Shown one piece after another: positions 5,454 through 63,089 of a stretch of 64,000 nt of DNA. The first letter of the stretch is position 1. The number at the start of each line of letters is the position of its first letter. A program made the position numbers and the translations under genes. Source of the stretch: Bacteroidia bacterium (GTDB lineage Bacteria > Bacteroidota > Ignavibacteria > SZUA-365); NCBI GenBank assembly GCA_027493955.1, contig JAOSJT010000001.1, positions 3,149,131-3,213,130 of the forward strand, written 5' to 3'. Under the pieces are notes generated by a model. It did no database searches. It had not been told where the DNA came from and worked only from the letters and a program-made list of their open reading frames with translations.

Positions 5454-5486
5454 TATTGGGATGGGGAAATAAACGTGGGAGAGAGA

Positions 5487-5640
5487 GTTAAACGTTAAAC
5501 GTTAAACGTTAAACGAGAAGAGGGTTAAACGTTAAAGGTTAAACGAGGGGAGGGTTAAAGGTTAAACGAGGGGAGGTGTCTTCTTTCGTTTAACTTTTAA
5601 CTTCTTTCGTTTAACTTTTAACGTTTAACCTCCCCTGTCA
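5487..5640. repeat. Inverted heptamer arrays (TTAAACG), left of S23 gene 1
   Basis: Units GTTAAAC/GTTAAAG run on the + strand to about 5570, followed after a short loop by the reverse-complement units CGTTTAA/CTTTTAA to about 5637. The flanks of both arms (GAGGGGAGG and CCTCCCC) also pair. A transcript of either strand could form a long AU-rich hairpin. Confidence 0.9.
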
Positions 5641-5737
5641 TTTGAATTTCCGGTCGTTCGTTTTGCATTTCCGTACATAGGAGTTAATCCGCATCTTGCG
5701 GTCGCATTATTTTTTCGACAGAACAAGGGAGTCTATC

Positions 5738-6115
5738 ATGTCTGAATTCATGCGTTCTCACAGAAAACTCGATGCCTGGAAAGCGGGAATCGATTTTGTT
5801 GTTGCTATCTACCGGGAGACTCAGGGCTTTCCGAAATCGGAGATGTACGGTCTAACGTCGCAATTACGGCGTGCTTCGGTATCTGTGCCGAGCAACATCG
5901 CGGAAGGCGCAGCTCGTGAGACGATAAAGGACAACTTGCGTTTTCTGACAATCGCCCGTTCTTCCTTAAGCGAAATTGAGACCGAGCTTTTCATCGCAAA
6001 GGAACTCGGCTACACAGAGAACCTGGAATCGCTTCTGCTTCAACTTGAGAAGGTCGCTTCACCGCTCAGCGGCATGATTCGCTATCTCAAAAGGAAGCTC
6101 GATGAGGAGCGTTAA
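5738..6115 (+). CDS. S23/IVS-type four-helix bundle protein 1
   Basis: 125 residues from ATG 5738, which has GGGAG eight bases upstream. Family signature: RKLDAWKAGIDFV near the start, YGLTSQLRRASVSVPSNIAEG in the middle, and SSLSEIETEL. These small basic helical bundles were first named from ORFs in intervening sequences of 23S rRNA; their biochemical role is not established. The gene is antisense to the sugar operon, and lies between two hairpins built of TTAAACG units. Its own stop codon is the TAA of the first CGTTAAACG unit of the right array. It looks like cargo of a repeat-bounded cassette placed between degT and the acyltransferase. Confidence 0.92.
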   Translation: MSEFMRSHRKLDAWKAGIDFVVAIYRETQGFPKSEMYGLTSQLRRASVSVPSNIAEGAARETIKDNLRFLTIARSSLSEIETELFIAKELGYTENLESLLLQLEKVASPLSGMIRYLKRKLDEER

Positions 6116-6200
6116 ACGTTAAAAGTTAAAAGTTAAACGAGGGGAGAGTTGGTCGGTACTATCCCTCGTTTAACGTTTAACGTTTAACCTTTAACTCCTT
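6111..6200. repeat. Inverted heptamer arrays (TTAAACG), right of S23 gene 1
   Basis: Units GTTAAAC/GTTAAAA at 6111-6139 face CGTTTAA units at 6166-6196 across a 20-30 nt loop. The innermost 13 bp, GTTAAACGAGGGA against TCCCTCGTTTAAC, pair perfectly. The array supplies the stop codons of both convergent flanking genes: S23 gene 1 and degT (6191-6193). Confidence 0.92.
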
Positions 6201-7348
6201 CCAACGAAATCGACAACGCAATTCACCACCTCCCCAATCATTTCCTCCGTCAATTCGGGGTAGACGGGGAGGGCGATGATGGTGTCGCAGACGGCGTCGG
6301 AGACGGGGAAGGCGTCGGCGCAACTGGGGAGGCCGGCGAAGCATTTCTGCTGATGGAAGGGCACGGGATAGTATACAGCGCATCCTATGCCGGCGGCGGT
6401 GAGGTGCTCCATCAAGCCGTCGCGATTCTGTACGCGTATGCAATACTGATTGTAGATGTGCGGATGCTGCAAGCCGGGCGCTTCGTATATGGAGGCAGGG
6501 AGCTTCACTTTACCGCTATCCACCACTCCGGCCTGAGTAAATAAAGCATTATATAACGCCGCGTTTTTCCGGCGGCCTTCATGCCAGCTGTTCAGATGCG
6601 GCAGTTTGACGTTGAGGACGGCAGCCTGGAGGGCGTCTATGCGGAAGTTGCCGCCGATCATGTCGTGATAGTAGCGCTTTTCGGCGCCGTGGACGCGGAG
6701 AAGCTCGATACGTTTCGCGAGGTCGGGGTCGTTGGTGGTGATGATGCCGCCGTCGCCGAAGGCACCGAGATTCTTGCTCGGGAAAAAGCTGAAGCAGCCC
6801 ACCGTGCCGATGCTGCCGACGCGGCGTCCGTCCTTGTACTGCGTACCGATGGCCTGCGCGGCGTCTTCGATCACGTACAGGTCATGCGCTTCGGCAAAGC
6901 CCATGATGGGATCCATATCGGCGGATTGTCCGAACAGATGCACCGGCACGATGGCCTTGATGTTGACGGAGGAGCGGTACTTTTCGAAAGCTTCGGCGGC
7001 GGCAAAGGGTGAAATATTATAGGTAAGTGGATCGATATCAACAAAAATCGGTGTGGCGCCGAGGCGGGAAACTACGCCGGCCGTAGCGAAAAAGGAGAAG
7101 GTCGGTACGATAACGCCGTCGCCGGGTCCGATACCGAGGGCCATCATGGCCAGCAGCAGCGCGTCCGTGCCGGAGGAGACGCCGATGGCGTGCGTGCTGC
7201 CGACATATTCGGCGATGTTTTTCTCGAGCGCGGTGACGTCGGGACCGAGAATGAAGTATTGTGAATCCGCAACACGGAGCAGGACCGGTTCGATTTCTTG
7301 TTTGATTTGCTGGTACTGGGCTTTAAGGTCGAGCAGGGGGACTTGCAT
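6191..7348 (-). CDS. DegT/DnrJ/EryC1/StrS sugar aminotransferase (WbpE/FdtB-like)
   Basis: PLP-dependent enzyme that transaminates a keto-sugar nucleotide, normally with glutamate as donor. 385 residues. PLP-site features are GTDALLLAM (about 60-68), EDAAQAIG (161-168) and FSFFPSKNLGAFGDGG, with catalytic Lys192. GIGPGDGVIVPTFSFFATA (72-90) is typical of the family. The next gene in the operon is a WbpD-like acetyltransferase, so the pair likely yields a 3-acetamido-3-deoxy sugar nucleotide. The stop TAA lies in the first repeat unit at 6191. The ATG at 7348 is preceded almost directly by pyrimidine-rich heptamers, with no Shine-Dalgarno. Confidence 0.94.
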   Translation of the reverse strand: MQVPLLDLKAQYQQIKQEIEPVLLRVADSQYFILGPDVTALEKNIAEYVGSTHAIGVSSGTDALLLAMMALGIGPGDGVIVPTFSFFATAGVVSRLGATPIFVDIDPLTYNISPFAAAEAFEKYRSSVNIKAIVPVHLFGQSADMDPIMGFAEAHDLYVIEDAAQAIGTQYKDGRRVGSIGTVGCFSFFPSKNLGAFGDGGIITTNDPDLAKRIELLRVHGAEKRYYHDMIGGNFRIDALQAAVLNVKLPHLNSWHEGRRKNAALYNALFTQAGVVDSGKVKLPASIYEAPGLQHPHIYNQYCIRVQNRDGLMEHLTAAGIGCAVYYPVPFHQQKCFAGLPSCADAFPVSDAVCDTIIALPVYPELTEEMIGEVVNCVVDFVGRS

Positions 7349-7349
7349 G

Positions 7350-7762
7350 GTGAAGGGTCAAGGGTAAAGGGTAAAGGGGGCGCTGTTTGCTATGTTCAAG
7401 CGGTTAGGCTGGACGATGGCGTTGCTTTCGAAATCTGGAGAATTGGTAAAGGGTAAAGGGTCGCTGTTTGCTACGCTCAAGCGGTTAGGCTGGACGATGG
7501 CGTTGCTTTCGAAATCTGGAGAATTGGTAAAGGGTAAAGGGTCGCTGTTTGCTACGCTCAAGCGGTTAGGCTGGACGATGGCGTTGCTTTCGAAATCTGG
7601 AGAATTGGTAAAGGGTAAAGGGTGAAGGGTAAAGGGTCGCTGTTTGCTATGTTCAAGCGGTTAGGCTGGACGATGGCGTTGCTTTCGAAATCTGGAGAAC
7701 TGGTAAAGGGTAAAGGGTGAAGGGTAAAGGGTCGCTGTTTGCTATGTTCAAGCGGTTAGGCT
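7350..7762. repeat. Heptamer array with 81/95-bp higher-order tandem repeat
   Basis: GGTAAAG/GGTGAAG heptamers alternate with a unique segment starting GCTGTTTGCT. The segment recurs at 7382, 7463, 7544, 7639 and 7734, giving periods of 81, 81, 95 and 95 bp; the 14-bp difference is exactly two extra heptamers. The outer 26 bp (7369-7394) recur inverted at 8301-8326 with three mismatches, so this is the left arm of an inverted repeat around S23 gene 2. Confidence 0.93.
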
Positions 7763-7768
7763 CAATGA

Positions 7769-8173
7769 CTAGCCATTTCTTGGTAATCTGTATGGTTTTC
7801 GGTCGTCCCGTATCTTCCTTCTGACAGAATTAATAAGTCCTGACAGTACGCGGGATTCATGATCAAGCAGAGCGTCAATTTCATCCGTATTCTCTATATA
7901 GTGTTGCCGTTCCGCAATCTTGACTTCCGTTTCAAGCTCACTTAAAGATCCGCGTGAAATAGTGTAGTATCGAAGAGTCTCCTTGAACGAATCCTTAGCC
8001 GAGCCTTCTGCGATGTTCGTCGGTATCGAAATTGCTGCTCTGCGCATCTGCGAGCTCAGAACAAACAACTCGTCCTTTGGGAACTTCCTTGTCATAGCAT
8101 AGACAGCATCAACTACATCCATACCTATTATCCATGCATCCAGGTTTTCGTGTGCTCTCTTGAATTTTCCCAT
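7769..8173 (-). CDS. S23/IVS-type four-helix bundle protein 2
   Basis: 134 residues from ATG 8173. Family signature: HENLDAWIIGMDVV, FVLSSQMRRAAISIPTNIAEG and RGSLSELETEV. About the same length as S23 gene 1 but clearly diverged from it, so it is a separate family member and not a recent copy. It lies on the operon strand between gmd and degT. Left and right it is bracketed by GGTAAAG arrays in opposite orientation, with a 26-bp arm match (7369-7394 against 8301-8326). The last residues before the TAG stop are not typical of the family and may come from junction DNA. Confidence 0.92.
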   Translation of the reverse strand: MGKFKRAHENLDAWIIGMDVVDAVYAMTRKFPKDELFVLSSQMRRAAISIPTNIAEGSAKDSFKETLRYYTISRGSLSELETEVKIAERQHYIENTDEIDALLDHESRVLSGLINSVRRKIRDDRKPYRLPRNG

Positions 8174-8300
8174 TGTAACCCCTATTTGGAAATTGTAGAA
8201 AAAAATAAGGAGTGTGAAACACTACAACGTATGTCCCCATCCCTTTCGTATATTCTCCAGACCTCGCAAATCACACCCAGGCTGACTCGGTCCATCTGAA

Positions 8301-8375
8301 CAAAACAAACTGCGCCCCCTTTACCCTTTACCCTTCACCCTTTACCAAAGCCCTTTACCCTTTACCCTTTACCAT
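8301..8375. repeat. Right inverted arm of S23 cassette 2
   Basis: 8301-8326 is the inverted partner of 7369-7394 (23 of 26 identical). It continues as CCCTTTA/CCCTTCA heptamers to 8373. On the coding strand of gmd these read GGGTAAAGG, and the TAA of one unit (8362-8364) is the gmd stop codon. Confidence 0.9.
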
Positions 8376-9333
8376 TCCCCATGTCCGCATCGACCATCAT
8401 TCGGACGAGTTCCTCGAATTTGACCTCGGGAGTCCAGGCGAGTTCGGTTTTGGCGCGGGAGGGATCGCCGAGGAGAATTTCCACTTCGGCGGGGCGGTAG
8501 AAGAGCGGATCGATTACGACGTAGTCTTCGTAATTCAAGCCGACATGCTCGAAGGCGACGCGGCAGAAATCGCGCACGCTGTGCGTTTCGCCGGTTGCAA
8601 TGACGTAATCTTTCGGGTGCTCCTGCTGCAGAATAAGCCACATGGCTTCGGCGTATTCTTTGGCATAGCCCCAGTCGCGTTTGGCGTCGAGATTGCCGAG
8701 ACGGAGCTCCTTCGCCTCTCCCCTTTTGATGCGCGCCACGGTGCTGGTAATTTTGCGTGTAACGAATTCGAAACCGCGGCGGGGCGACTCGTGATTATAT
8801 AATATACCGCTGGCGGCCTTGATGCCGTAGGCCTCGCGATAATTGCGCGTGAGATCGAAGCCCGCTACCTTGGTGATACCGTAGGCCGAACGCGGATGAA
8901 AGGGGGTGTCCTCATTCTGCGGCACTTCGCGCACCTTGCCGAACATCTCGCTGGATCCCGCGAAATAGAATCTGCACTCCGGCGCGTTTTCCTTGATGGA
9001 CGACAGCAGATAATGCGTGCCGTTGATATTCGTATTGAAAGTGGAAAACTCATCCTCGAAACTGTAGCTCACGAAGCTTTGCGCTGCCAGGTGATAGCAT
9101 TCGTCCGGCATGATATCGCGCACGACTTTGAACAGCGACGGATAGCTTTCGAGAGAGGCGGGATGGAGTTGTATATCATTGATCAGATGCTTCACCCGTC
9201 CGAGACGCTGCTCGGGAGCTTCGATAGCGACTCTCCTCACTACACCATGGACTTCATAACCTTTGGATAGAAGGAGTTCGGCCAAGTAAGAACCATCTTG
9301 GCCAGTTATGCCGGTAATGAGGGCTTTTTTCAA
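8362..9333 (-). CDS. gmd: GDP-mannose 4,6-dehydratase
   Basis: Converts GDP-D-mannose to GDP-4-keto-6-deoxy-mannose, precursor of GDP-fucose, rhamnose or perosamine. 323 residues, an extended short-chain dehydrogenase. The NAD(P) loop GITGQDGSYL is at 8-17, GSSEMFG at 126-132, and the catalytic Tyr151-x3-Lys155 pair lies in SAYGITK. LYNHESPRRGFEFVTRKI is diagnostic of Gmd. The start appears to be TTG at 9331-9333; no ATG or Shine-Dalgarno precedes it because pyrimidine-rich heptamers begin about ten bases upstream. The last two or three residues (GKG) and the stop are encoded by the repeat array. No fcl/rmd partner is present in the window. Confidence 0.96.
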   Translation of the reverse strand: MKKALITGITGQDGSYLAELLLSKGYEVHGVVRRVAIEAPEQRLGRVKHLINDIQLHPASLESYPSLFKVVRDIMPDECYHLAAQSFVSYSFEDEFSTFNTNINGTHYLLSSIKENAPECRFYFAGSSEMFGKVREVPQNEDTPFHPRSAYGITKVAGFDLTRNYREAYGIKAASGILYNHESPRRGFEFVTRKITSTVARIKRGEAKELRLGNLDAKRDWGYAKEYAEAMWLILQQEHPKDYVIATGETHSVRDFCRVAFEHVGLNYEDYVVIDPLFYRPAEVEILLGDPSRAKTELAWTPEVKFEELVRMMVDADMGNGKG

Positions 9334-9339
9334 AGATGG

Positions 9340-9366
9340 TGAAAAGGTGAAAAGGTGAAAAGGTAA
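9340..9366. repeat. Left arm of S23 cassette 3 (GGTGAAAA units)
   Basis: Three to four units of GGTGAAAA on the + strand just upstream of gmd. They face CCTTTTCACC units at 9912-9970, so the broken S23 gene 3 is bracketed by inverted arrays of a third unit type. Confidence 0.85.
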
Positions 9367-9389
9367 GAGGGAAGGGGTTTGGCTTTGTC

Positions 9390-9781
9390 TTACTTCTTCC
9401 CCAGTCGGGTGTTGTCTAATTGCGACCAGACGTGCTTCATTAGTCCATCTAGCAGATATGACGCTCGGGTGAGTAGTGGGAATACCTCAGATTCCTTCGA
9501 GATATACCCCTGACGTAATGCCAATTCCAACTCGGTATCCATTTCGCTCAATGAACCTCTTGAAATACCGAGGAAGCGATAATACTCACGTTTTGATGGT
9601 CTTGCCGCCCTTCTGCTATGTTCGTTGGAACCGAAACTGACGCATCCCGAAGTTGCGCGCTCAATCCGTATAATTCATACCGCGGGAATTTCCTCAACTC
9701 CTCCGCGACTTTTATCGCGAGGTCCATAGCGACTTTCCAAGCATCCAGTCGCCTATGCGACCATTCAAATTGCTGTTGCAT
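9390..9781 (-). pseudogene. S23/IVS-type four-helix bundle protein 3, frameshifted
   Basis: The N-terminal half reads from ATG 9781: HRRLDAWKVAMDLAIKV, YGLSAQLRDASVSVPTNIAEG. Near 9592-9612 the frame breaks: removing one G from GGGCGGC and one A from AAAA restores the family sequence KREYYRFLGISRGSLSEMDTE in another frame, which runs to a TAA at 9390-9392. At least one indel is needed, most simply two single-base insertions. The gene lies between nusG-like and gmd on the operon strand. It is a decayed third member of the same cassette family. Confidence 0.88.
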
Positions 9782-9907
9782 AGCTGATCCCTGTCTTTTT
9801 ACGAATGAGTGGATTTTCCCCTTCCCTCATTCAACACCCTATGAATGTACTTGATGGCGATCACCTATGCGAGTCAAATAATTCCACCCTGTCTCCGATA
9901 CACCCGT

Positions 9908-9970
9908 TCCCCTTTTCACCTTCTCCTCTCCCACCTTTTCACCTTTTCACCTTCTCCCCCTTTCACCTCC
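9908..9970. repeat. Right arm of S23 cassette 3 (TTTTCACC units)
   Basis: CCTTTTCACC and CCCTTTCACC units, inverted with respect to 9340-9366. The TGA inside one unit on the minus strand (GGTGAAA) is the stop codon of the NusG-like gene. Confidence 0.88.
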
Positions 9971-10465
9971 TCCCCCAACCACTTCAATCTCCGCCAAATC
10001 CACCTCGACGACCACGCTTTGGCGGATGCCTTCGACGAAGACGGCGACTTTGGAGGAGCCGCGGTATTGGGTGAGTTCGCCGCGGAGGCCGGTGAGGGGT
10101 CCGTGAATGACTTTGACGGGGGTGCCTTCGGGGAGGCGTTCGGGCAGCACGTCGAGCTTGCGGGGTCCTTCGACGGCGATGCGGATGCTTTCGATGATCG
10201 CGGGGCGGACTTCGACCAGAACGCCGGAGAAGTGGATGTACTTCAGGACACCATAAATATCGAGGGCTTTGATGCGCTGCCGCTCATCCACCCGCACGAA
10301 AATGTAGCCGTTAAACAGCGGAACGATGACGCGTTTTTTTCTGTCGGACCACTGTCGCACTTCTTCCCGCAGAGGGAGAAAACTCTCAATACCAAGCTCG
10401 AGAAGCTGCTGGTGGATTTTCTTCTCGAAGCGGGGACGGACGTAGAGAATTCTCCACTTGACCAC
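9947..10465 (-). CDS. NusG-family transcription antiterminator (RfaH/UpxY-like)
   Basis: 172 residues if started at GTG 10465. The NGN domain is clear: KWRILYVRPRFEKKIH, IESFLPLREEVRQWSDRKK, VPLFNGYIFVRVD; it is followed by a KOW-type C-terminal domain (EGTPVKVIHGPLTGLRGEL). A specialised NusG paralogue at the head of a polysaccharide operon matches RfaH/UpxY proteins, which let RNA polymerase read through long operons. The frame stays open upstream through a CAGAA-type repeat tract to 10735, but that part reads as short Val/Ser repeats and is unlikely to be translated. Both the start region and the stop lie in repeats. Confidence 0.88.
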   Translation of the reverse strand: MVKWRILYVRPRFEKKIHQQLLELGIESFLPLREEVRQWSDRKKRVIVPLFNGYIFVRVDERQRIKALDIYGVLKYIHFSGVLVEVRPAIIESIRIAVEGPRKLDVLPERLPEGTPVKVIHGPLTGLRGELTQYRGSSKVAVFVEGIRQSVVVEVDLAEIEVVGGGGERGRR

Positions 10466-10700
10466 AGAAACCACAGAAACCACAGAATTAACAGAAACCA
10501 CAGAATTAACAGAAACCACAGAATTAACAGAAACCACAGAATGAGCAGAAATGCCAGAAATTGTTAATCGGGAATCGTTAATCGTTAATCGGGAATCGTT
10601 AATCGTTAATCGGGAATCGGCACTGCGTAATACTTTCGAGAAGCGTTCTGTTTTTTTCTGTGTGTTCTGTTTCTTCTGTGGTCTGCGTTTGCTGCAATCG
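10461..10700. repeat. CAGAA/TTCTG hairpin element, copy 1
   Basis: ACCACAGAA and TTAACAGAA 9-mers (10461-10555) are followed by CGTTAAT/CGGGAAT heptamers, a short core reading GGCACTGCGTAATAC (about 10620), and then TTCTGTG-type units to about 10690 that are the reverse complement of the first tract. The whole can fold as one long hairpin. Related copies lie at 11600-11770 and in the 205-bp tandem repeat that follows. Confidence 0.85.
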
Positions 10701-10735
10701 TGAGTGCCACATTCGCAGAAAGGGATGCTGTACAT

Positions 10736-10956
10736 CTCGCTTTTCTACATCACCACTTCAGCACAAACTGTAGTGAGAGCTCCTCTTACTCCCTCTCTCT
10801 TCCAAGAGAGGGGGTCGGGGGGGTGAGTTGGGAATTATCGCACAGTACTTGCCAAAAGCTCCTGCTCACCATCCCACCTGCTGGCATCAACTGACTCTCC
10901 TCGTCGCGGCGAGTCGCCGACCTTCCGTCTTCGACGCTCCCTGTCCCTGCGCGGTA
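10736..10956. other. Intergenic, with a degenerate G/C hairpin
   Basis: No gene recognised. Near 10789-10830 CCCTCTCT pairs with AGAGAGGG across a short loop, followed by GGGGGGGTGAG. This resembles a solo, degenerate copy of the DUF559 cassette repeat. Confidence 0.6.
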
Positions 10957-11400
10957 TCAACAGATGGCCAGGTTCTCCGCATCGGCCAGATCCTGAGCTC
11001 TTCCTGTAGCCCGCTTATTGGCTATAAGATGGGGCAGATCGATGAACGGGACTTCAAGACCGTTGATAACCGTTACAATCTTCCGGGCATAGCACTCGTC
11101 GAAATCGACTCCTTTGAGCTGTGTGAGCATATCGATTCGGTTGGGGGGCTGCCCAAGCTGTATTACCTGCTCTGCATTCAGAAAATCCGCTTCAACGATA
11201 TCGAGATCGCCGAAGCCAAAGTCACTGAGAGCCAGAAGTATACGCTTTGCGTTGTCGGTATCAGGGCGCATCCAGATATCAAGATCTTTCGTGTACCTCG
11301 GATGACCGTGAAACGCAACCGCGTACCCTCCGACGATGAGAAAGCGGACCTCACGCCCGACAAGGCATTGAACGAAATCTTTGAAGTCACCCGTCAGCAA
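10957..11400 (-). CDS. Nucleotidyltransferase-fold protein (AbiEii/MNT-like)
   Basis: 147 residues with the minimal nucleotidyltransferase core: LIVGGYAVAFHG (22-32) and the metal-binding pair Asp39-x-Asp41 in TKDLDIW, with a third acidic site plausible in NRIDMLT. Such proteins act as toxins or antitoxins by adding nucleotides to RNA or AMP to protein. It overlaps the small upstream gene (11394-11600) by seven bases, which implies translational coupling and a two-gene module. The pair lies between two copies of the CAGAA/TTCTG hairpin element, so it may be mobile cargo. Which partner is the toxin is not visible. Confidence 0.85.
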   Translation of the reverse strand: MLTGDFKDFVQCLVGREVRFLIVGGYAVAFHGHPRYTKDLDIWMRPDTDNAKRILLALSDFGFGDLDIVEADFLNAEQVIQLGQPPNRIDMLTQLKGVDFDECYARKIVTVINGLEVPFIDLPHLIANKRATGRAQDLADAENLAIC

Positions 11401-11600
11401 GCACTGCTCGTATCACGTTCATCCATTTTGCGGACAACACACACATACTCGAAGCCGGGATTATCCGGGTATTTCCAGGAATTGTATTCCGTCCTGATAT
11501 CTTCGAGGGCCTGCAGACGCTCCTGCCCGGTACGCGTGCGCCAATAGTCACTTTCGCGGGGTTGGGATGCGATCGGATATTTTCGAATTGTCTTGATCAC
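11394..11600 (-). CDS. Small protein paired with nucleotidyltransferase
   Basis: 68 residues. The segment SDYWRTRTGQERLQALEDIR followed by WKY, then FEYVCVVRK matches short proteins I have seen encoded directly upstream of nucleotidyltransferase-fold genes. It overlaps the next gene by seven bases. No catalytic motif is seen; a role as antitoxin or substrate partner is inferred from the gene order. Confidence 0.75.
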   Translation of the reverse strand: MIKTIRKYPIASQPRESDYWRTRTGQERLQALEDIRTEYNSWKYPDNPGFEYVCVVRKMDERDTSSAC

Positions 11601-12310
11601 GAAACGCAGAATTCGCAGAATAAACAGAATGCGCAGAATCGTTAATCGGGAATCGTTAATCGTTAATCGGGAATCGTTAATCGGGAATCGTTAATCGGGA
11701 ATCGGCACTGCGTAATACTTTCGAGAAGCGTTCTGCTTGTTCTGTTTTTTCTGCGTGTTCTGCGTTCTGTTTTTTCTGTGGTCTGTATAGCTCCGCCAAT
11801 TCAGTCCCATTTTCGGGGACCGATTGGGAGTGCAACGCACTCTGCGGAACGACCACATGCCGTGATCTTATTTTGTTACCCGGGCATTGACCGGGACCAC
11901 AGAATTCACAGAAAACGCAGAATCGTTAAGCGGGAATCGGCACGGTGTAATACCTTCGAGAAGCGTTCTGCTTGTTCTGTTTTTTCTGCGCCTTCTGCGT
12001 TCCAATTCAGTCCCATTTTTGAGACCGATTGGGAGTGCAACGCACTCTGGGGAACGACCACATGCCGTGATCTTATTTTGTTACCCGGGCATTGACCGGG
12101 ACTACAGAATTCACAGAAAACGCAGAATCGTTAATCGGGAATCGGCACGGTGTAAAACCTTCGAGAAGCGTTCTGCTTGTTCTGTTTTTTCTGCGCCTTC
12201 TGCGTTCCAATTCAGTCCCATTTTCGGGGACCGATTGGAAGTGCAACGCACTCTGCGGAACGACCACATGCCGTGATCTTATTTTATTACCCGGGCATTA
12301 ACCGAGACCA
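11601..12310. repeat. 205-bp tandem repeat with CAGAA/TTCTG hairpins
   Basis: A unit of about 205 bp is repeated: CGGGCATT landmarks fall at 11881, 12086 and 12292 (spacing 205 and 206). Each unit has ACAGAA-rich DNA, a GGGAATCGGCAC core, TTCTG-rich DNA able to pair with the first tract, then a unique segment with TTCAGTCCCATTTT and a short GGGAGTGCAACGCACTCT stem. The first unit is partial. Long open frames across it are by-products of the period. Confidence 0.9.
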
Positions 12311-12786
12311 CAGAATTCACAGAAAGCGCAGAATCGTTAAGCGTTAAATGTTAAACGTTAAAGGTTAAAGGTTAATCTGTCCGCCGGAGGCGTAAGGGAT
12401 CTGGAAGCGAAAACGCGGAATGCTTTCGAGAAGTCTTCTGCGTCTTCTGTCTTTTCTGCGCCTTCTGCGGTTGCGTTCTGTCTTTTCTGTATTTTTCTGC
12501 GGTTTCTGTGGTTATACGAAGGCGTGCCGCAAAGCGGCACGTCGGTGGTGTAGCGCAGGCCCGGCACGGCGCGTTTCAGCGCAAGCGTTCCGTTCGTGCG
12601 GCAGGCAGCGATACGATCTATTTCGGCGAAGGACATATCATCGCCGGGAAACACGGATTCGGGATTTGCTACTATCTTGACGGACCCAAGGGCCATGGGA
12701 TCTCACTCTAACGTGGCGGTTTCCGGAAGGTATCCGGGCGTGCCGGTCATTGTTTCGATGTCATTAAAAAGTACGGAATTTTTCGG
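12310..12786. other. Repeat remnant and unassigned intergenic DNA
   Basis: 12310-12375 holds TTAAACG/TTAAAGG heptamers, 12430-12512 TTCTG-type units, i.e. a diverged further copy of the hairpin element. 12520-12786 contains short open frames on both strands (a 112-codon one on the minus strand, 12358-12696) that I could not match to any family; I make no gene call. Confidence 0.55.
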
Positions 12787-13362
12787 TCAATCACCACTCT
12801 GCAGGCGAAGAATCTCGTCTCGAATTTTTGCCGCGTCCTCGTAATCCTCGTTGTTTATGGCATCGTCGAGCCGGGACTGCAACTCCGCCAGGCGCTGTTC
12901 ACGCGGAGCCAGAACCGTGTCCGCCGTTGCGTCGTGGGTGTCGTGATGCTCCTCGCCTTCGGGGACAAAGCCGGCTTCATCCAGCACTTCCTCCGCGACA
13001 AACACGGGTATGCCGAAGCGCACGGCGAGGGCGATGGCATCGCTGGGACGGGCGTCCACCTCGTCCATCGCCGTATTGTCCAGCGACAGCCGGGCATAGA
13101 ACGTCCCCTCGCGCAGCTCGGTGATGGTGACTTCGGTAATGGCAAAGCCGAGCGTTTCGATCACGTCCTTGAACAGATCATGCGTCATGGGCCGGGGCGG
13201 TTTGATGCCCTCGATTTCCAGAGCGATGGCCTGCGCCTCGAAGGCCCCGATAATGATGGGCAAGCGGCGCTGTCCGTCCGTCTCGCGCAGGATGAGCGCA
13301 TACGCTCCCCCGCTGGAGGAGGAGGTGGAGAGACCGAGGATGTCGACTTTAATTTTTGACAT
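12787..13362 (-). CDS. Bifunctional nuclease family protein (DUF151) with UVR motif
   Basis: 191 residues. Residues 1 to about 130 are a BFN/DUF151 domain (LRETDGQRRLPIIIGAFEA, RPSDAIALAVRFGIPVFV), known from small nucleases active on DNA and RNA. Residues about 155-190 form a UvrB/UvrC interaction motif (RLDDAINNEDYEDAAKIRDE), the arrangement usual in Bacteroidota and Chlorobiota homologues. The start ATG is at 13362. It is likely cytoplasmic. It stands alone, with repeats on both sides. Confidence 0.93.
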   Translation of the reverse strand: MSKIKVDILGLSTSSSSGGAYALILRETDGQRRLPIIIGAFEAQAIALEIEGIKPPRPMTHDLFKDVIETLGFAITEVTITELREGTFYARLSLDNTAMDEVDARPSDAIALAVRFGIPVFVAEEVLDEAGFVPEGEEHHDTHDATADTVLAPREQRLAELQSRLDDAINNEDYEDAAKIRDEILRLQSGD

Positions 13363-34863: not shown

Positions 34864-36117
34864 ATGAGCAGCGATGTCCGCCGCGGGAATCTTCTCGGCA
34901 TCAACGGTCTCGGCCGCATCGGCAAAATGCTGTTGTGGTTTTTTGTGCACAACAAGCACTTTGACGGCATCGTCATCAACACGGGTCGTGAAGTGGGTCG
35001 CTCCCTCGAGGATCTCGCGCATCAAATCGGGGCCGACTCCACGTACGGACCGATGGAGATGTTCCTCTTCGGCCTCTCCGGCAAACGGGACATACGCATC
35101 GTCGACGAGCAGAGCGGTGTAATGGAAATCCACGGCCTGCCGATTACGGTATTGCGCAACGCACGGAATCCGAAGGACATCGACTGGAAGGGCATGGGCG
35201 TGCAGGTCGTCATTGACTGCACCGGCGTCTACCTCGATCCCACCATCCCGATGGACGACGCGAAGGGCAGCATACGCGGCCACCTCGCCGGCGGCGCACG
35301 CGTAGTGCTGGCGAGCGCGCCGTTCAAGATCAAAGACAAGGCGGCAAGCATGCCCGACGACAGCGCGATGATGATTTACGGCATCAATCACACGAACTTC
35401 GACACGCGCAAACATGCCCTGATTTCAGCGGCATCCTGCACCACCACGGGACTGGCGCACATGATGAAGCCTCTGCTCGAAAACGAGGAAACATCGCGCA
35501 TCCTTACCGCGTCGCTTTCGACCATTCACGCGGCGACGAACACGCAGAGCGTTCTCGACGCAGTGCCCAAGTCCGGTGCGTCCGACCTGCGCAAGACGCG
35601 TTCGGTGTTCAACAACATCATTCTCTCCTCCACCGGGGCAGCGAAGGCACTGGAACTCGTTCTCCCCGAGATCAAGCGCGTCGGCTTCATGGCGGATTCC
35701 GTCCGCATTCCGACCACAACGGTGTCGCTTATCAATCTCAACCTCACGTTTCACTCGCCGTTGAACGACAAAGGGGTGCCGACCATCAACCGCGCATTTC
35801 TGAACAATCTCTACAAGCAGGCGGCGGCCGGTGCGCAGAAGGATTTGCTCGTTTTCAGCGAGAAGCAAAACGTGTCGGCCGACCTGCTGGGTGTCCCGGC
35901 AGCGGTGGTGATCGAGGGCTTCGACACGCATACCCGGACGGGATTCATTGATTTGCCGACAGACATTCTCCGCACTTCCGGCGTACAGAGCGATCAACCG
36001 ATTCAGGTACCCGTGACGCACGCCAAGCTGTTCGGCTGGTATGACAATGAGTTCGGGAGTTATGTGACGTCGCTGGGCAAGCTGGCCATGTATGTAGATC
36101 GCACGCTTGCCAGCTAA
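34864..36117 (+). CDS. gap: Glyceraldehyde-3-phosphate dehydrogenase, long variant
   Basis: 417 residues, some 80 longer than the usual enzyme. AGGAGG lies five bases before the ATG. NAD(P) loop INGLGRIGK is at 13-21. The catalytic Cys192 lies in SAASCTTTGLA (SNASCTTNCLAP in the classic enzyme) and His222 in STIHAAT. WYDNEFGSYVT near the end is a clear family signature. The substitutions around the Cys and the extra insertions (about 60-100) mark a divergent clade. Oxidises glyceraldehyde-3-phosphate in glycolysis or the reverse. Cotranscribed with the PPDK-like gene. Its stop TAA overlaps an ACCACAG array. Confidence 0.94.
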   Translation: MSSDVRRGNLLGINGLGRIGKMLLWFFVHNKHFDGIVINTGREVGRSLEDLAHQIGADSTYGPMEMFLFGLSGKRDIRIVDEQSGVMEIHGLPITVLRNARNPKDIDWKGMGVQVVIDCTGVYLDPTIPMDDAKGSIRGHLAGGARVVLASAPFKIKDKAASMPDDSAMMIYGINHTNFDTRKHALISAASCTTTGLAHMMKPLLENEETSRILTASLSTIHAATNTQSVLDAVPKSGASDLRKTRSVFNNIILSSTGAAKALELVLPEIKRVGFMADSVRIPTTTVSLINLNLTFHSPLNDKGVPTINRAFLNNLYKQAAAGAQKDLLVFSEKQNVSADLLGVPAAVVIEGFDTHTRTGFIDLPTDILRTSGVQSDQPIQVPVTHAKLFGWYDNEFGSYVTSLGKLAMYVDRTLAS

Positions 36118-36423
36118 CCACAGACCACAGACCACAGACCACAGACCACAGACCACAGAAAGAACAGAAAGAACAGAAAGAACAGAAAGAACAGAAAGAA
36201 CAGAAAAGGACAGAAGGAAGAAATTCGAATACCGATGATGAGGCGGGAGAAGCAGGGCTGGAGGGGGTCGGGCGAGCTGTTGATTGTGTGTGGCAGCGCA
36301 ATAGGCCTGGGCGATATCGTGCTGTTGTTTTGGCTCGACGGCGACGATCTGTTTCCGGCACACTGTTCCGGCACACGCATTTCGATTCAGCTCCGTCCAT
36401 CTGTATGAAAGCGAGGAAGTGAG
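36113..36423. repeat. ACCACAG heptamers and AGAACAGAA 9-mers, then unassigned DNA
   Basis: ACCACAG is repeated about six times from 36116, then AGAACAGAA about six times to 36210. 36216-36423 shows no recognisable gene. Confidence 0.85.
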
Positions 36424-60710: not shown

Positions 60711-61061
60711 TTTCATTTTATCCGCCGGGTGCGCGCAAGCTCCTGTTGTATGCGGTGAAGGACTGATCCTTTTTTTATTTCGTTGCGATGCATCGGAAAG
60801 CGAAAATGGGTGCTTGTTTTCCATGAGCGCGAGGCACTCCCGTGCGCTTTGGGCCCTGCATGCTTGTCGGGGGGCATGAATTGCCCACCTGTGATGCAAA
60901 TGTGGAGCTTCATGGAACGCCCACCGTGATATTCAGGGAGTGGAAGCAACGCAAAGACGCAAGGGCGCAAAGACGCAGAGAAAGGATGCGATGCCTGGAA
61001 TCCTGCAATTTGTGCTGAATTCCTCCCTCACTCAGGCAATATTTGTGCTCTTGCATTGAAT
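60711..61061. other. Intergenic with orphan repeat unit
   Basis: No gene. A lone copy of the 37-bp unit is at about 60901-60926 (GTGGAGCTTCATGGAACG then CCCACC). 60955-60985 has GCAAAGACGCAAGGGCG-type low-complexity DNA. Confidence 0.75.
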
Positions 61062-61343
61062 GTGGGAGCTTCATGGAACGCCCACTTTTGCAGCATATGT
61101 GGGAGCTTCATGGAACGCCCACTTTTGCAGCACATGTGGGAGCTTCATGGAACGCCCACTTTTGCAGCACATGTGGGAGCTTCATGGAACGCCCACTTTC
61201 GCAGCACATGTGGGAGCTTCATGAAACGCCCACTTTTGCAGCGCATGTGGGAGCCTCATGAATCGCCCACTTTTGCAGCACATGTGGGAGCTTCATGAAA
61301 CGCCCACTTTTGCAACACAGTGGGAGCTTCATGGAACGCCCAC
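61062..61343. repeat. 37-bp hairpin repeat, array 1 (8 units)
   Basis: Units begin at 61062, 61099, 61136, 61173, 61210, 61247, 61284 and 61320, i.e. head to tail with a 37-bp period (last step 36). Each starts GTGGGAGCTTCATG and then GAACGCCCAC, so GTGGG pairs with CCCAC and TTC with GAA around an ATG loop. The linker is TTTTGCAGCACAT or close. Substitutions are few (GAA to AAA, CTT to CCT). No spacers, so not CRISPR. Confidence 0.97.
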
Positions 61344-61490
61344 TAGCACAGTTCATGGAGAATATCTACTGCAGCGGATCTTTCTCAGCGTACTGGAGGA
61401 TGTTGGAGGAGGTCAGCGAAAATGGGATTGCGATGTAGTACGGGACATGCTATGTTGAACTTTCATCATCGATATATAGGGAAACACTTC

Positions 61491-62473: not shown

Positions 62474-63089
62474 ATCGGAGGTTCATGGAGCTCCCACTTT
62501 TGCAGCATATGTGGGAGCTTCATGGAACGCCCACTTTTGCAGCATATGTGGGAGCTTCATGGAACGCCCACTTTTACAGCACATGTGAGAGCTTCATGGA
62601 ACGCCCACTTTTGCAGCATATGTAGGAGCTTCATGGAACGCCCACTTTTACAGCACATGTGGGAGCTTCATGGAACGCCCACTTTCGCAGCACATGTGGG
62701 AGCTTCATGGAACGCCCACTTTTGCAGCATATGTGGGAGCTTCATGGAACGCCCACTTTTACAGCACATGTGGGAGCTTCATGGAACGCCCACTTTCGCA
62801 GCACATGTGGGAGCTTCATGGAACGCCCACTTTTGCAGCATATGTGGGAGCTTCATGGAACGCCCACTTTTACAGCACATGTGGGAGCTTCATGGAACGC
62901 CAACTTTTGCAGCATATGTGGGAGCTTCATGAAACGCCCACTTTTACAGCACATGTGGGAGCTTCATGGAACGCCCACTTTCGCAGCGGATGTGGGAGCT
63001 TCATGGAACGCCCACTTTCGCAGCACATGTGGGAGCTTCATGGAACGCCCACTTTTGCAGCATATGTGGGTGGTTCGTGATTCGCCCGG
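62474..63089. repeat. 37-bp hairpin repeat, array 2 (17 units)
   Basis: Seventeen units in register at 37 bp from 62474 to 63066 (starts 62511, 62548, 62585 and so on); the first and last are diverged. Units are separated by three linker types: A TTTTGCAGCATAT, B TTTTACAGCACAT, C TTTCGCAGCACAT. From 62511 the order is ABABCABCABABCCA, showing that two- and three-unit blocks were duplicated together. The same strand orientation as array 1. 37 is not divisible by three and no unit has a stop, so all three forward frames stay open. Confidence 0.97.

Follow-up and report, generated by a model that had tools for sequence, protein, structure and literature searches.

Inverted short-period hairpins between a NusG-like gene and a nuclease gene in an Ignavibacteria genome: possible gene-less copies of a GxxExxY-type element

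What kind of DNA places hairpin after hairpin in a single intergenic gap, and does it belong with any of the genes that it surrounds? The locus that raises this question lies in a 64,000-nucleotide stretch of a genome recorded as Bacteroidia bacterium and assigned to the Ignavibacteria (assembly GCA_027493955.1, contig JAOSJT010000001.1, positions 3,149,131 to 3,213,130; hereafter the window), in which the gap from a NusG-like gene to a bifunctional-nuclease (BFN) gene spans 2.3 kb (2324 bp) and holds five hairpins, H1 to H5 (Table 1). Their left arms are built of NNNNCAGAA units and their right arms of TTCTG units, and long heptamer tracts of CGTTAAT and CGGGAAT are present in H1 and H2. We put the probability at a little over one half, roughly 55%, that these hairpins are gene-less copies of a GxxExxY-type small intergenic element, comparable with miniature inverted-repeat transposable elements (MITEs).

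The two ends of such an element would be inverted arrays of units of about 9 nt that read inward, made of NNNNCAGAA here and of CACAGAG, CGCAAAG, CACAAAG or CGCAGAG elsewhere, and full members would carry one small gene between the arms, encoding the GxxExxY protein, a putative PD-(D/E)XK nuclease. A parallel type would have arms of about 7 nt (here sometimes 8 nt) and carry the gene for S23, a four-helix-bundle protein. H1 to H5 would derive from gene-bearing elements by gene loss. In the NusG-BFN gap, hairpins are found on either side of a conserved leader.

The five CAGAA/TTCTG copies described in an earlier sequence-only reading of the window are real, and H1 to H5 could be placed directly on the letters. 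Counted with one mismatch allowed, the pattern CAGAA-N4-CAGAA-N4-CAGAA occurs 27 times in the window (23 times within 10465-12467 and four times near 36156), against a mean of 0.00 in 100 dinucleotide shuffles of the window; genome-wide, this period-9 pattern gives 148 overlapping matches and the reversed pattern, taken as control, gives one. Inverted, inward-reading arms of about 9 nt are clear in H1 and H2, whose local pairing scores (23 vs 22 and 25 vs 16) exceed the maximum of 500 single-base shuffles (shuffle means 7.1-11.6); taken alone, H3 (13 vs 13), H4 (14 vs 14) and H5 (14 vs 15) never do. The heptamer and core composition attributed to the copies holds in part, as H1 to H4 share the core GGCACNGNGTAANACNTTCGAGAAGCG, which has four matches in the genome, all at this locus, and H5 is without it at up to three mismatches. 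At 36117-36219 the window also has a one-armed array in which seven-nt ACCACAG units run into nine-nt ACAGAAAGA units, with periods 7 and 9 joined.

Arms of the same kind surround a GxxExxY gene elsewhere in this genome. There are two GxxExxY matches (PF13366), neither in the window, and seven S23 matches (PF05635). At locus L022 a GxxExxY gene has CAGAA arrays to its left and TTCTG arrays to its right, and the outer right end of this element shares 28 identical nt with the outer left end of H1 (from 10460). H1 is alone among the hairpins in having this 28-mer, which occurs at only these two places in the own-genome loci compared, a part of the genome, and its inner 23 nt are found at H1 and L022 only, among the matches listed. 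In a comparison of direct and inverted flanks at eight gene places in the genome, two direct hairpin copies with GCAGAG units (430 columns, 79%) enclose the second GxxExxY gene, two direct copies of a heptamer hairpin, each 445 bp long, enclose the S23 gene at L106 (4176000-4188000; 445 columns, 97%), and H1 and H2 enclose the nucleotidyltransferase pair (181 columns, 81%); four other places have inverted arms, and the S23 gene at L107 has a weak direct match only. Further tandem copies of the heptamer hairpin stand behind the S23 gene at L106. Among 72 CAGAA arrays in 25 own-genome regions chosen for their CAGAA matches, the better complement lies inward for 20 and outward for one, with neither present within 510 bp for 51. 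No PF13366 gene is present between the arms of H1 to H5, which are thus a gene-less derivative at most.

Inside the hairpins no S23 open reading frame was matched, the nearest being a broken copy at 9489-9751. That copy (matches 9489-9605 and 9590-9751) is enclosed, within 9338-9973, by GGTGAAAA units and by inverted units like CACCTTTT, and forms with them an S23 element with 8-nt arms that adjoins the hairpin locus. Two S23 genes, within 5485-6200 and 7346-8383, stand between GTTAAAC and GGTAAAG heptamer arms, one of which is held by an 81-95-bp tandem at 7363-7762.

Across 197 genomes of the class, taken as the Ignavibacteria because a named Ignavibacteria record (L263) has the same left arm as the class locus L165, S23 matches occur in 154 and GxxExxY matches in 136. 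We scored the complementarity of the 300 bp on either side of each match, with 40 swapped-flank pairs per family as control, at class loci that were best matches and no random draw (30 S23, 30 GxxExxY and 29 nucleotidyltransferase loci, of which 8 of 89 were incomplete and excluded). The median inverted score is 22 at 27 GxxExxY loci against 13 for swapped flanks, and 18 at 28 S23 loci against 12. Where arms score at least 16, period 7 is best in 16 of 21 S23 loci and period 9 or 10 in 17 of 24 GxxExxY loci. With redrawn gene borders, an analysis that excluded four of the 30 loci, the S23 signal is weaker (median 14 vs 11), and 11/26 loci exceed the swapped 95th percentile. The lag profile of S23 arms peaks at 7 and 14 (0.45 identity), as does that of high-scoring swapped S23 flanks (0.41, 0.39) because heptamers stand on many flanks; for GxxExxY arms the profile rises to no more than 0.35 at lag 9, the same as at lag 2. 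A strict array scan of the class loci had returned arrays at 5/30 S23 and 0/30 GxxExxY loci and in 5/20 random own-genome stretches (a sixth being a run of N), and was replaced by the inverted-flank score because real arms are short and degenerate. CACRGAG pairs in one genome gave 21 matches, and the control none.

Similar arms accompany GxxExxY genes in named genomes. The best 80 of 573 confirmed GxxExxY relatives are mostly from Bacteroidota; other named relatives are single records from Planctomycetota, Spartobacteria, Opitutaceae, Treponema, Anaerolineae, Rhizobium and Methylobacter. After exclusion of four of the 80, the remaining 76 loci have a median score of 20.5, against 11 at 134 shifted sites and 13 for 300 swapped flanks, and 60 of them exceed the shifted-site 95th percentile (15). 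The Methylobacter and Spartobacteria loci have no arms (scores 10 and 11). A unit spacing of 9 nt was counted 107 times inward and 37 times outward at the named loci against 3.4 after shuffling, the highest count apart from an overlap effect at 2. A looser count, of at least two C[AG]C[AT][AG]A[AG] units per side with one mismatch, separates poorly, at 67/76 GxxExxY loci and 67/138 control sites. Between genera, the arm motif tracks GxxExxY similarity (Mantel rho 0.254, 0/500 permutations as high; 0.239 given GC content) across 60 loci, a set that leaves out 16 further loci with fewer than three recognisable units.

In an alignment of 22 GxxExxY sequences, E33, D73, E83, K85 and Q97 are invariant and form active-site-like columns, a pattern that we take to be that of a PD-(D/E)XK nuclease. 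The predicted structure has a mean predicted local distance difference test score (pLDDT) of 87, and a fold search with it returned no PDB match at E 0.001 or better; the best matches, all short of that threshold, are a Bax1 endonuclease complex, SSO0001 (a Cas4), an Argonaute-associated Cas4-family protein and an alkaline exonuclease. The invariant residues together with these nuclease folds lead us to propose that the GxxExxY nuclease acts on arm DNA, which it would recognise most likely as palindromic DNA. Since S23 arms match within an element and swapped flanks are near background, palindromic recognition or arm-to-arm copying would fit better than a fixed end sequence.

A position downstream of a permease gene presents several states of one site. 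One of two expected next genes is present at 20/30 loci there: an arm-GxxExxY-arm arrangement occupies three of them (L269, L270 and L273; intergenic length 487-509 bp), a gene-less hairpin with the same arm kind a fourth (L283; 103 bp), and single arms two more (L280, and L282 with CAGAT units). The remaining 14 have no arms by eye, for example the empty 45 bp of L272. These states are the series expected from gene loss, in which the gene-less hairpin is the counterpart of H1 to H5, with the direction unproven.

At the NusG-BFN gap, part of the repetition belongs to the host. The 205-bp tandem occupies 11796-12343 in 2.7 copies; the sequence-only reading had placed three hairpins in it, but it contains two hairpins in full and, of H5, the left arm only. 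Its unit starts with CCAATTCAGTCCCATTTT, found at 11796, 12002 and 12207, and the longer leader GCTCCGCCAATTCAGTCCCA has a single occurrence, at 11790. A sequence of the form GCTCCGCCAATTCA[GC]TC[CA]CA is present in the NusG-BFN gap of 6/6 family relatives with the same gene order. As the leader is conserved in all six and the segment is tripled here, the tandem multiplies a host leader segment and a hairpin, not an element unit, and is a local triplication of host leader DNA with its hairpin. When the five hairpins are aligned, H3 and H4 resemble H5 in their left arms and again in their last units, and H2 in their core; exchange between the neighbouring hairpins H2 and H5 may have produced the mixed H3 and H4 together with the tandem. 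On the strand of the NusG-like gene the leader (11790-11815) reads TGGGACTGAATTGGCGGAGC, with a putative resemblance to the ops element, and the leader may be a recruitment signal for the NusG-like protein.

The gap is about 396-1049 bp long in the six relatives, against 2324 bp here. By eye, it has hairpins of other 9-nt words, of the CGAAG/CACGAAG types, in L100, L101 and less clearly L098; it has a single arm in L099 and none in L102 and L103.

Table 1. Coordinates in the window of the hairpins, leader segments and genes at the NusG-BFN locus
Feature	Position	Strand	Remarks
NusG-like gene	taken as 9947-10462	minus	Pfam NusG
Hairpin H1	10461-10690	none	9-nt CAGAA arm (11 units), heptamers CGTTAAT/CGGGAAT, core GGCACTGCGTAATACTTTCGAGAAGCG, TTCTG arm
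H1 heptamer tract	10559-10620	plus	
Nucleotidyltransferase gene, AbiEii-like	10957-11400	minus	Putative passenger, not regular cargo
Small partner gene	11397-11603	minus	Overlaps nucleotidyltransferase gene
Hairpin H2	11603-11783	none	Direct repeat of H1 (81%, 181 columns)
Host leader GCTCCGCCAATTCAGTCCCA and intergenic DNA after it	11790-11895	none	Leader kept in six relatives
Hairpin H3	11896-12001	none	Short left arm, H5-like; core H2-like
Leader segment copy 2, starting at CCAATTCAGTCCC	12002-12100	none	Part of 205-bp tandem
Hairpin H4	12101-12206	none	Tandem copy of H3
Leader segment copy 3	12207-12306	none	
Hairpin H5	12307-12513	none	H3/H4-type left arm, other centre, long TTCTG arm, no core
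BFN gene	12787-13362	minus	Pfam BFN_dom and UVR

Several observations weigh against reading the hairpins as gene-less copies of an element. The direction from gene-bearing to gene-less is assumed, and the origin of the arms, the upkeep of their complementarity and their movement are proposed only. Words of 7 and 9 nt are mixed within one unit; most CAGAA arrays are one-armed (51/72); the core is found in 0/40 relatives and in the own genome only at this locus; and no target-site duplication was seen by eye at the hairpin site or the permease operon, where the relatives are highly diverged. Among the named loci only 35/76 exceed the swapped-flank 95th percentile, which is high (21) because arms share a family consensus, and some high-scoring loci, such as L237, are not built of such units. 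The Mantel test excludes same-genus pairs only, and host phylogeny partly remains in it.

MITEs are short and have inverted ends and no transposase gene. Inverted ends without a transposase gene are seen in H1 and H2; dispersed copies of the whole unit were not found, the core being confined to the locus. H1 to H5 also differ from MITEs in that their ends are tandem arrays, and no target-site duplication was seen by eye. As a candidate dispersed repeat the 205-bp unit was rejected: it has 43 genome matches, and those away from the locus cover the TTCTG tract only (query 153-196). An origin from repetitive extragenic palindromic (REP) sequences and their associated tyrosine transposases (RAYT) was rejected likewise, the lone PF01797 (Y1) match, L299 near 4215650, lying beside an array of REP-like repeats of a different family, unlike CAGAA, with no pair of CAGAA or of TTCTG units spaced at period 9 in the 8 kb around the Y1 gene. 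Two arrays of 37-bp tandem repeats in the window, at 61060-61344 (7.7 copies) and 62477-63070 (16.1 copies), form a separate repeat class.

The one-armed majority and the lack of a visible target-site duplication would both be expected if the hairpins arose in place, an array expanding by slippage and its inverted partner being copied by replicative template switching, so that nothing moves and the genes are incidental. The arms of one S23 gene match each other and swapped flanks do not, and the hairpins with other motifs seen by eye in the orthologous gap of some relatives also suit growth in place. Such growth leaves unexplained, however, why GxxExxY and S23 genes in particular sit between the arms, why the arm motif tracks nuclease similarity and why a 28-nt terminus is identical at H1 and L022, and we regard it as rather unlikely.

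We give still less credence to the idea that the hairpins act as RNA, whether as transcripts cut by RNase III in the manner of the S23 intervening sequence or as terminators or regulators between the NusG-like and nuclease genes. Stable folds speak for a role in RNA: the fold z score is strong in H2 (-5.55), although it drops to -0.87 when H2 is shortened to end at 11747, and moderate in H1 (-2.25), H3 (-2.03), H4 (-2.67) and the right part of H5 (-2.71). So does the intervening sequence of the Coxiella burnetii 23S rRNA gene, which is described with a 28-bp terminal stem, GACAGAT heptamers before the S23 open reading frame and excision by RNase III, and is called selfish (PMC4990558). Like the elements considered here, that sequence is small, its terminal repeats are inverted and its end contains heptamers as short tandem units; unlike it, with its place in 23S rRNA and its S23 gene, H1 to H5 are intergenic and gene-less and have 9-nt arms. 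Against action as RNA, no Rfam family reaches threshold in the window (0 matches), and selection on RNA pairing of the arms was not seen by G.U/A.C asymmetry: on the coding strand, G.U-type and A.C-type mismatches number 125 and 153 at 60 GxxExxY loci, and 32 and 27, 27 and 27, and 16 and 21 at S23 loci for score cuts of 14, 16 and 18 (13, 12 and 8 loci).

The sequence-only reading had taken the nucleotidyltransferase pair between H1 and H2 for the cargo, flanked as S23 genes are by other arrays. The pair resembles a toxin-antitoxin module of the AbiEii type in its similarity to a solved toxin and its small adjacent partner: the nucleotidyltransferase matches PDB 8an4 (MenT1) at E 8.4e-7 and PADLOC AbiEii at E 0.0048, with no family in Pfam (E 0.001) or NCBIfam (E 1), and a partner was detected at 11/29 relative loci. 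Nucleotidyltransferase matches occur in 65/197 class genomes. That this pair is the proper cargo of an element ending in the hairpins is very improbable and mostly refuted, for all that H1 and H2 flank the pair as direct repeats (Table 1) and that pair and CAGAA hairpins are jointly missing from the gap of 6/6 family relatives, since inverted arms at 26 class relatives are no better than control (median 12 vs 12.5 swapped; 3/26 reach 16) and the strict scan found a short-period array within about 1.5 kb at 2/29 loci. What remains of the comparison is that H1 and H2 do flank the pair, as arms or hairpins of other motifs flank S23 and GxxExxY genes; the composite unit occurs only here and with no fixed cargo, whereas the arms belong to a genome-wide family. 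As the tested nucleotidyltransferase loci have no arms beyond control, the position that the pair occupies beside these hairpins is best regarded as a local feature, and the pair would have entered the site separately, as a passenger. The nucleotidyltransferase and its partner are present in 0/6 relative NusG-BFN loci, and two of those six genomes (G003 and G006) have a nucleotidyltransferase relative elsewhere. In a third (G005, locus L098) the gap holds, by eye, other coding-like DNA where the pair sits here; the site may thus attract small gene modules.

Some parts of this picture are already in print: arrays of short period have been described, as have heptamers, both in convergent pairs and within an S23 intervening sequence. 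The heptanucleotide short tandemly repeated repetitive (STRR) sequences of cyanobacteria are also short-period arrays. Two Xanthomonas genomes carry GGGAATC heptamers, with 70 and 75 inverted pairs that converge and with their function open (PMC4692102); the period-7 tracts are alike and the core heptamers here contain GGGAATC, whereas that text discusses G-quadruplexes and holds no S23 or four-helix term, and 9-nt arms here enclose the heptamers. The TAACTGA repeats of Beggiatoaceae are likewise abundant short intergenic tandem arrays, but almost wholly direct (one inverted), and the text on them proposes a regulatory role, discusses a mobile origin and has no S23 term (PMC4679880). In passages of PMC8934634 and PMC12085832, GxxExxY is named in one as a gene beside a reverse transcriptase and appears in the other in a virus table, with no arms mentioned; those of PMC8700078, PMC11448079, PMC5524665 and PMC11637426 contain nothing on such arms. 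No literature linking GxxExxY to such arms was found, in literature mostly outside subscription journals, which is no proof of absence.

The wider pattern, of gene families between complementary short-period arms together with gene-less copies, is the interesting part. We advance only tentatively the proposal that S23 and GxxExxY genes in many bacteria serve as cargo for a single, widespread class of minimal selfish element. Such elements would end not in fixed sequences but in inverted short-period arrays, with a period near 7 nt for S23 and near 9 nt for GxxExxY, whose motif changes while the arms of any one element remain complementary. On this view an rRNA intervening sequence would be an S23-type element that had landed in 23S rRNA, and a gene-less hairpin such as those described here a non-autonomous one; recognition by the protein would depend on palindromic structure and not on a single sequence, and the arms would undergo concerted renewal. 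If this is true, the puzzling short-period arrays between genes of many bacteria, the rRNA intervening sequences and two common protein families of unclear role (PF05635 and PF13366) would all belong to a single system with a testable rule, by which arm period and motif correspond to the gene between the arms, and GxxExxY would acquire a concrete candidate function as a nuclease acting on arm palindromes.

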